This document shows, in pieces, positions 3,745-29,476 of a DNA stretch of 35,818 nucleotides. The first letter of the stretch is position 1. Every line of letters begins with the position of its first letter. This DNA is from Thermodesulfovibrio sp. N1 (GTDB lineage Bacteria; Nitrospirota; Thermodesulfovibrionia; Thermodesulfovibrionales; Thermodesulfovibrionaceae): positions 1 to 35,818 of the forward strand of contig NZ_MAVV01000016.1 of NCBI RefSeq assembly GCF_001707915.1, read 5' to 3'. Under the pieces are notes generated by a model. That model saw only the letters and a list, made by a program, of their open reading frames with translations, was not told the DNA's origin and did no database searches. Both the position numbers and the translations under genes were made by a program.

Positions 3745-4176
3745 TTAATATGTTCTCTCCTGTTTTTCAGATTCACAGATTTCTTTTACTGTATCTTTTA
3801 CGAGTTTTCCATTTTCCCAAACTTTTTCGCTCACTTTTCTGCATTTTGTATAGGGATCTTTGTAATAGTAATCACTTGCTGGTTCTGCTCTGTAGTAACC
3901 TCTTCCATCTTCTGTTCTGTATTCAACTGGTCGTCCACTCTGGTAAGCCTCTCTTGATCCTCTTGTTGAAATATCAGCAATTGTAGCGCCAAAAACTGCT
4001 CCTAATCCAGCACCTATCACTCCTCCGCGCCAAGGATTTTTCTTGTCTAAAAGAGCTCCAGCAATTCCACCGATTACAGCGCCTGCACCTGCTCCTTCAT
4101 AATGTTGCTGATGTAACTGCCCGCATGCTACAGTAAATAACATTAATGCTGCCAATATCAAAGCCATTGCTTTCAT
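3745..4176 (-). CDS. Glycine-zipper lipoprotein
   Basis: A 143-residue predicted lipoprotein. The signal peptide ends in a lipobox-like FTVAC, making Cys18 the candidate lipidated residue. Residues about 30-70 form a glycine zipper (AVIGGIAGALLDKK, then GGVIGAGLGAVFGATIADIS) like that of the YMGG/17-kDa surface antigen families, which insert in or contact the outer membrane. The C-terminal third is polar and rich in Tyr, Arg and Lys. A strong AAGGAGG ribosome binding site precedes the ATG. One copy of the 49-bp direct repeat begins 13 nt upstream of this start codon, so the insertion of the toxin-antitoxin pair has placed new sequence in front of this gene. Function is unknown. Confidence 0.8.
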   Translation of the reverse strand: MKAMALILAALMLFTVACGQLHQQHYEGAGAGAVIGGIAGALLDKKNPWRGGVIGAGLGAVFGATIADISTRGSREAYQSGRPVEYRTEDGRGYYRAEPASDYYYKDPYTKCRKVSEKVWENGKLVKDTVKEICESEKQERTY

Positions 4177-4188
4177 CTTTGACCTCCT

Positions 4189-4237
4189 TTTTTCTTTTAT
4201 TCTAACTCAAAAGCATCAAAAATTACTCTATTTCTTC
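4189..4237. repeat. 49-bp direct repeat, copy A (distal side of TA pair)
   Basis: It matches 4827-4875 at 48 of 49 positions, the difference being A4215 versus C4853. This copy encodes the last codons of the DUF5615 gene and the short spacer before the lipoprotein gene. Read in the other frame it is a fossil of the end of the REC-GGDEF gene. Confidence 0.95.
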
Positions 4238-4591
4238 ATGGAATCTTTTAATTCTTATTCCATTTGGACTGATTACAATTAAATTTCCAAAAATATCTTT
4301 TTCTTTAAGCATAATAAAAAATTTTTTAAATATTTCGCATGTTTCTTTAATGGTGTGTCTATAAATTTTTACTACTATTATCCCGCCACAATATTTTGGA
4401 TGAAATCTGAAGATTTTCGAAAAATCCTTATCCATTGTAATTATTATGCGATTTTGTTCACAGGCTATTTTATAAACCTCATCATCTTTTATTCCAGATA
4501 AATTATCTCTTATGTTTAATACATCATGTCCTAAGTCTCTCAAATATTCAACAATTGGTTCGAATAAATTTTCATCAGTTAGAAACCTCAT
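4223..4591 (-). CDS. DUF5615 PIN-like protein, probable toxin of a TA pair
   Basis: This 122-residue protein opens with MRFLTDENLFEPIVEYLRDL and has the pattern GHDVLNIRD, then IIITMDKDFSKIF and GGIIVVKI. That is the DUF5615 (Mut7-C/PIN-like) fold, whose conserved acidic residues (DEN near the N terminus and TMDKDF at about 53-58) resemble PIN nuclease active sites. Members are commonly paired with DUF433 proteins as putative type II toxin-antitoxin systems. The start overlaps the stop of the DUF433 gene by 4 nt. The last residues HEEIE and the stop are read from the 49-bp repeat, in a different frame from the one used by the REC-GGDEF gene, so the C terminus was fixed by the insertion. Nuclease activity is inferred. 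Confidence 0.82.
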   Translation of the reverse strand: MRFLTDENLFEPIVEYLRDLGHDVLNIRDNLSGIKDDEVYKIACEQNRIIITMDKDFSKIFRFHPKYCGGIIVVKIYRHTIKETCEIFKKFFIMLKEKDIFGNLIVISPNGIRIKRFHEEIE

Positions 4592-4815
4592 GCAGAAACA
4601 CCGGCTTCTTCATCAGCAAGTGCTGCAGCATAACTCAGACATGCTTTAATATCTTCATCTGTAATATTAGGATAGGCCTTTTTAATGTCTTCAAAACTTT
4701 CTCCTTTGGCTAAAAGTTCAAGAATTATGTGAACAGGAATTCTTGTTCCTTTTATGCATGGTTTTCCACTGCAAATTTGCGGATCAATTGAAATTCTTTC
4801 TATTTCTGTTTTCAT
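4588..4815 (-). CDS. DUF433 domain protein, probable antitoxin
   Basis: The 75-residue protein contains the complete DUF433 signature: ISIDPQICSGKPCIKGTRIP, then HIILELLAKGESFEDI and YPNITDEDIKACLSYA. DUF433 is a small helix-turn-helix-like domain that typically precedes a DUF5615 or other PIN-like gene as the presumed antitoxin. A GAGGG ribosome binding site lies just upstream. The gene begins 19 nt after the REC-GGDEF stop and is separated from it only by one repeat copy. Antitoxin and autoregulator roles are family-level inferences. Confidence 0.85.
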   Translation of the reverse strand: MKTEIERISIDPQICSGKPCIKGTRIPVHIILELLAKGESFEDIKKAYPNITDEDIKACLSYAAALADEEAGVSA

Positions 4816-4826
4816 TTTGTTCCCTC

Positions 4827-4875
4827 TTTTTCTTTTATTCTAACTCAAAAGCCTCAAAAATTACTCTATTTCTTC
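4827..4875. repeat. 49-bp direct repeat, copy B (3' end of REC-GGDEF gene)
   Basis: It covers the last 41 nt of the REC-GGDEF coding region and 8 nt beyond its stop. It is the likely original copy, because it encodes an uninterrupted family-like C terminus (NRVIF...). Together with 4189-4237 it brackets the DUF433/DUF5615 pair exactly. Confidence 0.95.
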
Positions 4876-5734
4876 CTGACTGTTTTGCTTTATAAAGAGC
4901 AATGTCTGCTTTTTGAAGTATTTCGTCAAGAAGAATTCGATCATTACCGTAAAAAGTAGTAAATCCAATACTTATTGTTAATTTTATTATTTCTCCTGAA
5001 AAAGTATGGAATATGTGATTTTCAACTCTCTTTCTAAGGTTGTCGCAAATTTCTAAAGCCTCTAATTCATCTGTAGAAGGCATAATAATACAGAATTCCT
5101 CTCCTCCATATCTACCAATAGTCATTTTGTTTGGAAGAAAATCTATGGTTAAGGAGACAAGTTCCATTAAAATTCTGTCTCCTGAAAGATGCCCATAAGT
5201 ATCATTAATTTTTTTAAAGAAATCAATGTCTAAAAGAGCAAGGCTTAAAGGTTCCTTGTATAAAGAACACCAACTCAACTCTTCTTGAATCCTTTCCATA
5301 AGAAATCCTCGGTTGTATGCTCCAGTGAGAGGATCTTTAGTAAGTAACTTATTAAACTCTCTTTTGAGTTCTATAATTTCACGAGTTCTATTAATTTTCA
5401 TAATAATTTCACATTTTAAAAATGGTTTTGAAATATAATCAAAAACTTCTAATTCACATATTTTCATTAGTTGAGAATTATTTTTCTTATTGAGAATGGA
5501 AATAACTGGACATTCTCTTAAGGAGGGAGCTGTTGTGAGAGTTTCTATTATTTTCCATTTCATATTGCCCTTGGCAGAAATATCAAAAAAAATTAAATCA
5601 GGATTTATTTTATAGATGTTATCTATGAGGTTATTGTCTATCTTAAAAGTTTCAAAGTACTCAACTTCTTCTTTAAGAAACTCCGCTAAAAGCTTTGAAA
5701 GGTCTTTTTCATTAGAGCATAGTATAAGTTTCAT
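4835..5734 (-). CDS. Receiver-GGDEF diguanylate cyclase
   Basis: This 299-residue cytoplasmic response regulator is predicted to make c-di-GMP from two GTP. Residues about 1-120 form a receiver with the phospho-acceptor D51 (LIFFD) and the conserved Lys K103 (ISKPF). The usual N-terminal acidic pocket is replaced by SNEK (residues 7-10), so phosphorylation may be weak or altered. The GGDEF domain follows (DPLTGAYNRGF, DIDFFKKINDTYGH) with an active-site GGEEF at 210-214. The RxxD inhibitory site expected about five residues upstream is LPNK, so product inhibition through it is unlikely. A TTTACA-17-TATAAT promoter sits directly upstream, with its -35 box inside the last codons of pyrF, and no Shine-Dalgarno sequence is seen. 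The 3' end was duplicated by the TA insertion. Confidence 0.93.
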   Translation of the reverse strand: MKLILCSNEKDLSKLLAEFLKEEVEYFETFKIDNNLIDNIYKINPDLIFFDISAKGNMKWKIIETLTTAPSLRECPVISILNKKNNSQLMKICELEVFDYISKPFLKCEIIMKINRTREIIELKREFNKLLTKDPLTGAYNRGFLMERIQEELSWCSLYKEPLSLALLDIDFFKKINDTYGHLSGDRILMELVSLTIDFLPNKMTIGRYGGEEFCIIMPSTDELEALEICDNLRKRVENHIFHTFSGEIIKLTISIGFTTFYGNDRILLDEILQKADIALYKAKQSGRNRVIFEAFELE

Positions 5735-26889: not shown

Positions 26890-27684
26890 TTAAAAAGAAT
26901 GCTCATCATTAGGGAAAATTCCCCTTTCAACTTCATCTTTGTATTGCTTTATAGCCTTTAAAATTTCTTCTCTTAAATTTGCATATTTTTTTACAAATTT
27001 TGGTGTAAATCTCTCAAAAAGTCCGAGTAAATCATGAATTACTAAAACCTGTCCATTACAGTATGGACCTGCTCCTATACCAATTGTAGGGATATCAAGA
27101 CTTTCAGTAATTTCCTTCGCAAGCTCAGCAGGAATTACTTCAAGTACTATTGCTACTGCACCTTTGTCCTGTAGTCTCAATGCGTCCTCTTTTATTCTTT
27201 TTGCCTGCTCCTCTGTTTTCCCCTGAAGCCTGTATCCTCCCATTCTGAGTACTGCCTGAGGAGTAAGTCCGAGATGTCCAATAACAGGAATTTCTGCCTC
27301 AGTAATAGCTTTAACCTGTGGAAGAATTTCCCTTCCTCCTTCAAGTTTTACAGCATGGGCACCTGCTTCTTTTATAAGTTTGCCTGCATTTTTTACTGCT
27401 TCCTCAACACTTACTTGATAGGACATAAAGGGCATATCAGCAACAATCATTGCTTTCTGGGTTGATCTAACAACAATCTTTGTATGATAAATCATTTCAT
27501 CCATTGTAACAGGCAGTGTTGTTTCATTACCTTGAACAACCATTGAGAGGGAATCACCTACTAAAATCATGTCTATTCCTGCTTCATCTACAAGGTGTGC
27601 AAAGGGATAATCATAGGCTGTAAGCATTGTAATCTTATTTCTCTGCTTTTTTTTATTTAATAAATCTGTAACAGTAAACCTCAT
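26890..27684 (-). CDS. panB: Ketopantoate hydroxymethyltransferase
   Basis: PanB adds a hydroxymethyl group to alpha-ketoisovalerate in pantothenate synthesis, with methylene-tetrahydrofolate as donor. The 264-residue protein has KITMLTAYDYPFA, IDMILVGDSLSMVVQG, VADMPFMSYQ and IGHLGLTPQ, and the metal-binding Asp residues are in the expected segments. The ATG at 27684 has AAAGGAG upstream, sequence that borders the inserted repeat. The first seven codons and the start are duplicated at 27786-27811, where the ancestral copy overlapped the recJ stop. The ATG now overlaps the stop of a 41-codon ORF created by the insertion. Confidence 0.97.
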   Translation of the reverse strand: MRFTVTDLLNKKKQRNKITMLTAYDYPFAHLVDEAGIDMILVGDSLSMVVQGNETTLPVTMDEMIYHTKIVVRSTQKAMIVADMPFMSYQVSVEEAVKNAGKLIKEAGAHAVKLEGGREILPQVKAITEAEIPVIGHLGLTPQAVLRMGGYRLQGKTEEQAKRIKEDALRLQDKGAVAIVLEVIPAELAKEITESLDIPTIGIGAGPYCNGQVLVIHDLLGLFERFTPKFVKKYANLREEILKAIKQYKDEVERGIFPNDEHSF

Positions 27685-27689
27685 CTTTG
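27664..27689. repeat. 26-bp direct repeat, copy 1 (panB start)
   Basis: It is identical over 26 bases to 27786-27811 and contains the functional panB start codon and its first codons. It flanks the palindromic insertion on the panB side. Confidence 0.97.
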
Positions 27690-27806
27690 TCTCCTTTGTT
27701 TGTCATTCCGAGAGACTCGATGTCCCGAGGAATCTCTAAGGATGAGATTCTTCGGCACTTCGTGCCTCAGAATGACAAAATGTCTATCTGTAACAGTAAA
27801 CCTCAT
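27681..27806 (-). CDS. 41-codon ORF created by repeat insertion, fossil panB start fused to repeat sequence
   Basis: Beginning at the duplicated panB ATG (27806), this frame reads MRFTVTD exactly as PanB does, then continues through the palindromic element. It ends at a TGA that overlaps the real panB ATG by the usual ATGA. The ATG itself overlaps the recJ stop (ATGA). It therefore bridges recJ and panB without untranslated sequence. A function for the peptide is unlikely; translation for coupling is plausible. Confidence 0.5.
   Translation of the reverse strand: MRFTVTDRHFVILRHEVPKNLILRDSSGHRVSRNDKQRRQR
27699..27779. mobile_element. Palindromic MITE/REP-like element inserted at the recJ-panB junction
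   Basis: About 81 bp with terminal inverted repeats TTTGTCATTC (27699-27708) and GAATGACAAA (27770-27779), and inner arms ending GAATCTC and GAGATTC around a short centre. The right arm also contains the small hairpin GGCACTTCGTGCC. It carries no protein gene, and is bracketed at 6-9 nt distance by the 26-bp direct repeats, as expected of a past insertion with target duplication. Confidence 0.8.
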
Positions 27807-27811
27807 CTTTG
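27786..27811. repeat. 26-bp direct repeat, copy 2 (recJ end / fossil panB start)
   Basis: This copy contains the recJ stop overlapping a fossil panB ATG (ATGA at 27806-27803). It is the probable ancestral junction and is identical to 27664-27689. Confidence 0.97.
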
Positions 27812-29476
27812 GGCCCTTCTTATTGCTTTAAGTTGAAGTTGAAGGTTTTTCATTCCCTCCCACTCGTTTATTGATGGAGTAAAGGCTGCATCAATTAGGC
27901 ATCCTTCAAGAATATTTTCCTCTGCCATTTCAAAACCTATTGCAGAAATACTGTTTCCATTCTGTCTTAAAAACATTTTCAGATGATTGTTTCCAACCTT
28001 TCTTAAGTTTACCACAGTAAGTTCCTTTGCTCCAAAAAGTGGTTCACGATTACCTTCTCCAAAGGGTTCAAGTAATTTTATCTCATCAACAATTTTTTCA
28101 TTAATTTCTTCTAAAGTTACCGCAGCATCTAACTGAAGTATGTTTTTAGTGTCTGCAAACAAAGAGTCCGATAATCTGCAAATTCTTTCTTTAAATTCAT
28201 TTAGATTTTCTTTATATAGCATAACTCCTGCAGCTTGTTTATGTCCTCCAAATCGAATAAGCAAGTCTTTACAGCCCAACAACAACTCCTGTAAATCAAA
28301 ACCCTGTGGAGCCCTTGCAGACCCCTTTACTTTATTTTCATCTATTGAAAGTATAAAAACAGGTCTACCAAATCTTTCAATAAGTTTACTTGCTACTGTA
28401 CCGACAACTCCAATATGCCAATTTCCCGATAGTACAATAACAGATTCATCATTAAACTCTTCTTCGAGCTTTTTTTCAATCTCAACCATAATTTTTTCTT
28501 CTGTTTTCTGTCTTAAAGAATTCACTTGATTTAGCCATTGACCAATATTTGAGAGTTCTTCAATATCTTCTGAAGTAAAAAATTTTACAACATCCCCTGC
28601 ATAGTCAATTCTTCCAGGAGCATTTATTCTTGGAATTATGCAATAACTTAAATGGAAATTTTTAATATTATTAGAATTTATTCCAGCTATTTCTTTCAGT
28701 ATTTTGATTGATTTTCTGTAAGGATTTTCAATAAGACTCCATCCCTCTTTTATTATTGCTCTGTTAATGGTATTAAGGGGAACCATATCAGCATATGTTC
28801 CTAAAATTACAAGATCAAGATACTCCATTGCCTGTTGTTGATCTATTGCCATTGCAAGTATAAAGGCAACTCCTACTCCAGCTAAAAATGCATAGGGCGA
28901 GTTTCTATCAATCTTTGGATTTATTACAGCCAAAGCTTCAGGAAGAACAACCTTTTCATTTATTCTTAATGGTTCATGATGATCTGTAATGATTACACCA
29001 ATTCCTTCTTGTCTTGCGTATTGAATTGTATCGAAATCTTTTATTCCGCAGTCAACAGTAATTATCAGTTTTACACCTATTTTTTTTGCCATTTCAATAC
29101 TTGTATGTGTTAAACCATATCCATGATGAATCCTATGAGGGATGTGATAAAAAACATTAGCTCCTCTTTTCTTTAAAAAATCATAGAGAATCGCTGTCCC
29201 TGTTAATCCATCGGCATCGTAATCACCATTTATTAAAATTTTTGTGCCTGAAAGGATTGCTTCATTAATTATTTTTGTGGATTCATAAACTCCAGGAATA
29301 CAGAAAGGATCTATCAGGTCAATTGAAGGATTCAGAAAGGAATAAATCTCATCTAAGTCTTTAAGCCCCCTTGATACAAGAACCTGCGCAAGGGGAACTG
29401 ATATATTCAATGCCTTTGAAAGATATTGAAGATAAGCCTGATTTGTTTTAACAACAACCCATTCACTGTATTGCAT
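27803..29476 (-). CDS. recJ: Single-stranded-DNA exonuclease RecJ
   Basis: RecJ degrades single-stranded DNA 5' to 3' in recombination and mismatch repair. The 557-residue protein has the DHH phosphoesterase motifs: INGDYDADGLTGTA, ITVDCGIKDF and IITDHHEP. The DHHA1 region has SARAPQGFDLQ and RFGGHKQAAGVML, and a C-terminal OB-like region follows. Size is within the usual range. It begins 1 nt after the secF stop, so it is part of the yajC-secDF unit, and the gene order secD-secF-recJ is common. Its TGA lies in the 26-bp duplication. Confidence 0.97.
   Translation of the reverse strand: MQYSEWVVVKTNQAYLQYLSKALNISVPLAQVLVSRGLKDLDEIYSFLNPSIDLIDPFCIPGVYESTKIINEAILSGTKILINGDYDADGLTGTAILYDFLKKRGANVFYHIPHRIHHGYGLTHTSIEMAKKIGVKLIITVDCGIKDFDTIQYARQEGIGVIITDHHEPLRINEKVVLPEALAVINPKIDRNSPYAFLAGVGVAFILAMAIDQQQAMEYLDLVILGTYADMVPLNTINRAIIKEGWSLIENPYRKSIKILKEIAGINSNNIKNFHLSYCIIPRINAPGRIDYAGDVVKFFTSEDIEELSNIGQWLNQVNSLRQKTEEKIMVEIEKKLEEEFNDESVIVLSGNWHIGVVGTVASKLIERFGRPVFILSIDENKVKGSARAPQGFDLQELLLGCKDLLIRFGGHKQAAGVMLYKENLNEFKERICRLSDSLFADTKNILQLDAAVTLEEINEKIVDEIKLLEPFGEGNREPLFGAKELTVVNLRKVGNNHLKMFLRQNGNSISAIGFEMAEENILEGCLIDAAFTPSINEWEGMKNLQLQLKAIRRAQR

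Follow-up and report, generated by a model that had tools for sequence, protein, structure and literature searches.

A toxin-antitoxin-like gene pair bracketed by copies of a neighboring gene's tail in Thermodesulfovibrio sp. N1

The gene pair and its bracketing repeat

On the minus strand of the window (by which we mean the whole stretch of 35,818 nucleotides [nt] that was analyzed), an operon carries, in order, pyrF, a GGDEF gene, a DUF433 gene, a DUF5615 gene, a glycine-zipper lipoprotein gene, and pyrE. The DUF433 and DUF5615 genes overlap by 4 bp and form a toxin-antitoxin (TA)-like pair (Table 1); their sequences lead us to infer a TA function. Searches of the PDB with the predicted toxin found no solved relative by sequence and no meaningful or confident match by fold, and PADLOC returned no match.

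Table 1. Features of the locus, with positions in the window
Feature	Position	Strand	Remarks
Glycine-zipper lipoprotein gene, ancestral downstream neighbor	3745-4176	-	
Copy D (downstream) of the 49-bp repeat	4189-4237	-	Lipoprotein side; leads into the lipoprotein gene's ancestral ribosome-binding region
DUF5615 gene, PIN-like predicted toxin, 122 aa	4223-4591	-	Pfam 1e-22; Mut7-C 3.9e-7
Inserted module, 589 bp	4238-4826	-	Junction aligned with the empty site
DUF433 gene, predicted antitoxin, 75 aa	4588-4815	-	Pfam 2.5e-27; PDB 2ga1 1e-5
Copy U (upstream) of the 49-bp repeat	4827-4875	-	GGDEF side; last 41 nt of the GGDEF gene including the stop, plus 8 nt
GGDEF gene, tail duplicated, remains intact	4835-5734	-	Pfam 8e-39

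The pair lies between two direct copies, U and D, of a 49-bp repeat that agree at 48 of 49 positions (one difference). The GGDEF stop codon is at positions 4835 to 4837, so that 41 nt of copy U, counting the stop, are coding. Both points had been made in an initial annotation of the sequence, and both were borne out. The same annotation had seen no transposase or integrase; likewise, the ORF list and an inverted-repeat scan gave no transposase, integrase, or terminal inverted repeat at the insert, which has no integrase ORF, and no integrase was recognized within the first 9 kb of the window. Its label for the gene, REC-GGDEF, stands for the GGDEF domain only; the N-terminal REC domain scored 27.1 bits, under the Pfam cutoff of 30.2.

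With up to one mismatch allowed, the longest direct repeat was 49 bp in the real window versus 17 to 21 bp in 30 first-order Markov shuffles of it. When the genus's own 20-kb contexts served as controls, a comparable bracketing repeat was found at none of 211 placements. A chance repeat is ruled out by these two results.

The last four residues of the predicted toxin (EEIE) and its stop codon come from copy D, read in another frame, as had been claimed. In an alignment, toxin homologues (∼60% identical) share sequence as far as the equivalent of Arg116 and thereafter have varied ends; thus, the DUF5615 gene probably had its native end removed at the junction. A structure model (pLDDT 87) shows a complete last strand and no structure in the borrowed residues, and hence the protein with its borrowed C terminus is probably not damaged.

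The GGDEF gene is itself a mosaic. Its body (up to residue ∼220) has its closest relatives in the G003 group, the genome itself grouping with G009, G012, and G014. The C-terminal ∼50 residues of the protein are clade-like and closest to those of the clade-mate G012. We rejected the idea that the duplication arose when the GGDEF gene was replaced by a xenologue, because the replacement breakpoint does not coincide with the repeat.

Elsewhere in the window, between recJ and panB (27664 to 27818), the start of panB is duplicated over 33 bp (91% identity), and the copies flank an 89-bp palindromic TGTCATTCTGAGG...GGAATGACA element. The arrangement resembles insertion of a REP/MITE-like element with long duplication of its target. 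The two loci had been likened to each other and perhaps ascribed to the same mechanism. They do share a long duplication, but the cargo differs and a common mechanism would be conjectural.

The same site in related genomes

The GGDEF gene has orthologues in all 15 congeners, and the DUF433/DUF5615 pair is absent from 13 of them. In most pair-free congeners the lipoprotein gene starts 21 to 58 bp past the GGDEF stop. In the clade-mates G014 and G009 the GGDEF tail continues uninterrupted, and removing the insert and one repeat copy from the window yields their empty site; that is, the left flank through copy U, joined to the sequence after copy D, aligns with these sites. Both flanks are therefore unbroken through the duplicated segment, which is the defining mark of insertion with target duplication. 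An empty site with a single tail copy, as the initial annotation had predicted, is thus present in G014, G009, and others.

Other changes have occurred in this region. The lipoprotein gene itself is truncated in G009. Two congeners, G003 and G002, have other inserts of ∼270 bp between the GGDEF and lipoprotein genes, with no duplicated tail; that of G002 (L063) is a palindromic REP-like sequence and that of G003 (L072) is a small zinc-ribbon-like ORF. The interval between the lipoprotein gene and pyrE holds what resembles a remnant of an MNT nucleotidyltransferase in G012 (L069) and of a HEPN/DUF86 C terminus in G009 (L071). These remnants suggest that a second TA module entered the same operon and then decayed. 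There is also apparently an intein-like insert in dcd (dCTP deaminase) of G012 (L062, L069), and probably in that of G014 (L070), which is found neither in the window nor in G009.

G012 has the same pair at the same junction, with an antitoxin 90% and a toxin 86% identical to those of the window. Its toxin is cut after ∼66 native residues and then enters a remnant, 23 to 28 nt long, of copy D. At fourfold-degenerate sites, the pair has diverged between the window's genome (G000) and G012 about as much as the neighboring genes have (only 35 such sites are in the pair). Given this divergence and the common junction, the insertion is not recent, and a recent insertion restricted to this strain was rejected.

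The neighboring genes differ by ∼13 to 22% between G000 and G012. If the two repeat copies had diverged independently to that extent, the binomial chance of finding only one difference in 49 positions would be 0.009 to 0.00008. The copies are thus too alike for an insertion as old as the split between G000 and G012, from which we infer that they were later homogenized. Their near-identity would require gene conversion or a more complicated history, recombination between the copies being the simplest reason. The window's two copies also resemble each other more than they do the tail in any relative.

On the clade tree G000 branches first, then G009, and then G012 with G014, and the pair is in G000 and G012 only. 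This patchy distribution implies losses in G009 and G014, or else transfer. The lipoprotein and pyrE trees conflict within the clade; local exchange has therefore occurred.

Recurrence at other loci in the phylum

The ribE locus of another genus, g73, independently shows filled, decayed, and empty states. In G214 the riboflavin synthase gene is followed by the pair and then by a duplicate of its own final 243 bp, which ends exactly at the stop; beyond this comes the ancestral downstream sequence. At the empty sites of G255 and G189, one ribE tail is followed directly by the downstream sequence of G214. The locus is eroded in G265, which has kept both tails and almost lost the pair. Four more genomes (G218, G221, G234, and G270) have the pair or its remains at the same left ribE junction, with no detectable right copy. 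In a tree of the ribE tails, the two copies of G214 are sisters (support 87), as are the two copies of G265 (support 74), indicating that the tail was duplicated in place and not imported.

Related strains having the pair and no repeat had been named as evidence against the insertion. Such cases do occur, namely, these four genomes and, with its partial second copy, G012. The repeat-less pairs are always at the same junction as in filled relatives, and we therefore read them as decayed.

Duplicated ends of adjacent genes flank other DUF433/DUF5615 pairs, as had been anticipated, far more commonly than in controls. In an initial set of 58 pairs, repeats of at least 45 bits bracketed 13, versus 3 of 69 flank-only controls, with 2 of those 3 in one array. 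We also took 80 DUF5615 loci from across the phylum, chosen irrespective of their similarity to the window's toxin, and counted direct repeats of at least 50 bits within 600 bp on either side. Of the 80 loci, 15 were bracketed; when the placement was shifted within these loci, 7 of 308 were (Fisher P ≈ 8e-7; placements within one locus are not independent). With a single geometry applied to all families, the frequencies were 15/74 for DUF5615, 7/23 for PIN, 4/23 for HepT, and 0/25 for GNAT acetyltransferases. The PIN and HepT loci behave as the DUF5615 loci do; thus, a pattern confined to DUF5615 was rejected.

Inspection of the DUF5615 repeats for gene tails showed that ∼13 of the 15 are the tails of neighboring genes, which may lie on either strand and represent many unrelated families. 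The donors include genes for riboflavin synthase, UDP-GlcNAc 2-epimerase, a CsgG/PDZ protein, a TPR protein, CHAD, a class-III aminotransferase, DsbA, an RF-1-domain protein, and methylases. The bracketing repeats are 27 to 289 bp long. Repeats other than tails also occur (tRNA, CRISPR, and REP sequences), and among the PIN and HepT repeats at least one, around a HepT locus, is a tRNA sequence. The signature around ∼1 in 5 pairs suggests that the modules move without a known transposase and spare the target gene.

Some loci have a different arrangement. A number of close homologues, found in Nitrospirota, Planctomycetota, and elsewhere, follow a tail that encodes the C terminus of an Eco57I-type N6-methylase and is often detached from any methylase body. 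L104 (1-4700) is an array of tail, module, tail, and module behind a methylase gene, and in L102 two tails are only 78% identical. In the L104, L103, and L102 arrays, the methylase tails alternate with DUF2283, DUF433/DUF5615, and BRO-N genes, like cassettes separated by spacers. Finally, in G035 (L056:1190-1900), the tmRNA gene has a DUF433/DUF5615 pair at its 3' end, bracketed by 31-bp direct copies of that end and with no integrase in the vicinity. The methylase arrays and the tmRNA case also fit integration by tail homology or an old integrase site.

Origin of the duplication and known systems

The initial annotation had proposed that a small module inserted here and preserved the host gene by duplicating its end, and the empty sites and the recurrence support this proposal. 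We think it probable (roughly 0.75) that the pair was inserted as a bare module, that the GGDEF tail was duplicated by break repair, and that homogenization or erosion followed. The TA-like module would have been captured, as a bare fragment of ∼589 bp, in the interval that separates the GGDEF gene from the lipoprotein gene. The DNA most likely broke at this site, and its ends were filled in or re-replicated during repair while the fragment bearing the module was joined in. The duplication would then extend from the insertion point back over the stop codon and leave the host gene whole. Outcomes that spare the gene would survive selection and those that break it would be lost, so that gene tails may predominate among the duplicated pieces with no need for a site preference. 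Recombination between the copies could later keep them alike or delete the module without a scar, and without such recombination the module and the second copy would erode.

The duplication might instead have arrived with the module. A circular or linear DNA carrying the module and a conserved gene tail could enter the resident tail by a single crossover, the tail acting as a portable site of homology. The N6-methylase loci fit such a route, since there the close homologues follow conserved, often bodiless tails, L104 is a tail-module array, and the dissimilar tails of L102 look as though they had different origins. However, the sister tails within G214 and within G265, and the mutual closeness of the window's copies, argue for duplication in place, unless conversion erased the difference. 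In addition, the target genes belong to many unrelated families, and no close homologue outside the genus was seen beside a GGDEF tail. Integration by tail homology is thus an unlikely, though not negligible, source of this locus.

It is considerably less probable that the repeats are the att sites of an integrase, either lost or acting in trans, whose targets are gene 3' ends, and that the addictive pair is all that is left of an integrative element. The tmRNA 3' end is a classic integrase target, and the pair in G035 lies between copies of just this sequence; the tRNA repeat around one HepT locus is of the same kind. But no integrase or other element gene was found near, and a single integrase would leave a fixed core rather than repeats of such variable length in unrelated targets. 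Short tandem duplications do arise in genomes, and one could have occurred independently of the module. Against this, or chance, are the shuffles and the genus background given above, as well as the absence of the module exactly where the second copy is absent, decayed forms aside. At the GGDEF locus the empty sites refute this explanation, to which we give almost no weight. Insertion of a bare module with duplication of the target by break repair is therefore the reading that we prefer here. Whether it can be extended is less certain: that several TA families in Nitrospirota move as bare, transposase-free modules, duplicating tens to hundreds of target bases, and that gene-tail duplication is a general and previously unreported scar of their settlement, is a tentative proposal, to which we give slightly less than even odds.

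A duplicated neighbor's tail is a scar that can be counted, so that it becomes testable how TA genes enter chromosomes without a mobile element to carry them. Such a scar would permit insertions to be dated, losses to be recognized, and families to be compared. It would also unite TA modules with restriction-modification systems, around which this scar has been described, and explain how modules land inside operons without breaking them. With tail copies on both sides, the modules themselves could readily be lost without a scar or form tandem arrays.

Genomic islands at the 3' ends of tRNA and tmRNA genes carry a direct repeat of the gene's 3' end that keeps the gene functional. The locus described here is similar in that the element lies between direct repeats of a gene's 3' end and the gene is spared. 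It departs from such islands in lacking an integrase and a fixed core site, in having just two genes, and in the variable length of the repeat.

VapBC-type PIN-COG2442 pairs are a known class of TA systems (Makarova et al. 2009, PMC2701414), one member of which, vapBC10 of Synechocystis, has been studied (PMC3834315). As in these pairs, the gene for the DUF433 (COG2442) antitoxin precedes and overlaps that for a PIN-like toxin; in contrast to them, the predicted toxin is in the DUF5615 branch (Pfam also matches Mut7-C).

The closest parallel is with restriction-modification genes, whose insertion with long target duplication was reportedly the subject of Nobusato et al. in 2000 and Furuta et al. 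in 2010. A nonexhaustive search of the literature found no prior report of TA modules with long target duplications. That restriction-modification and TA systems share addiction and apparent mobility was noted in a 2009 review citing the original paper (PMC2654758). Such insertion was described for restriction-modification genes from two Helicobacter pylori genomes; the duplication, according to a review, varies in length, on the order of 100 bp (PMC1643837, PMC3874152, PMC3031569). Common to those insertions and ours are an addictive chromosomal module, an empty site in relatives, a long direct target duplication of variable length, and the lack of a linked transposase. They differ in that the cargo here is a TA-like pair (DUF433 plus DUF5615), the genomes are from Nitrospirota, gene tails make up most of the duplicated targets, and recurrence was measured against controls. 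The hallmarks of insertion with long target duplication, namely, flanking repeats, an empty site, and no transposase or inverted repeats, are all found at the GGDEF locus; restriction-modification cargo is not. If the module moved as the comparisons indicate, the locus would be a variant of insertion with long target duplication that differs from the described form in its cargo.
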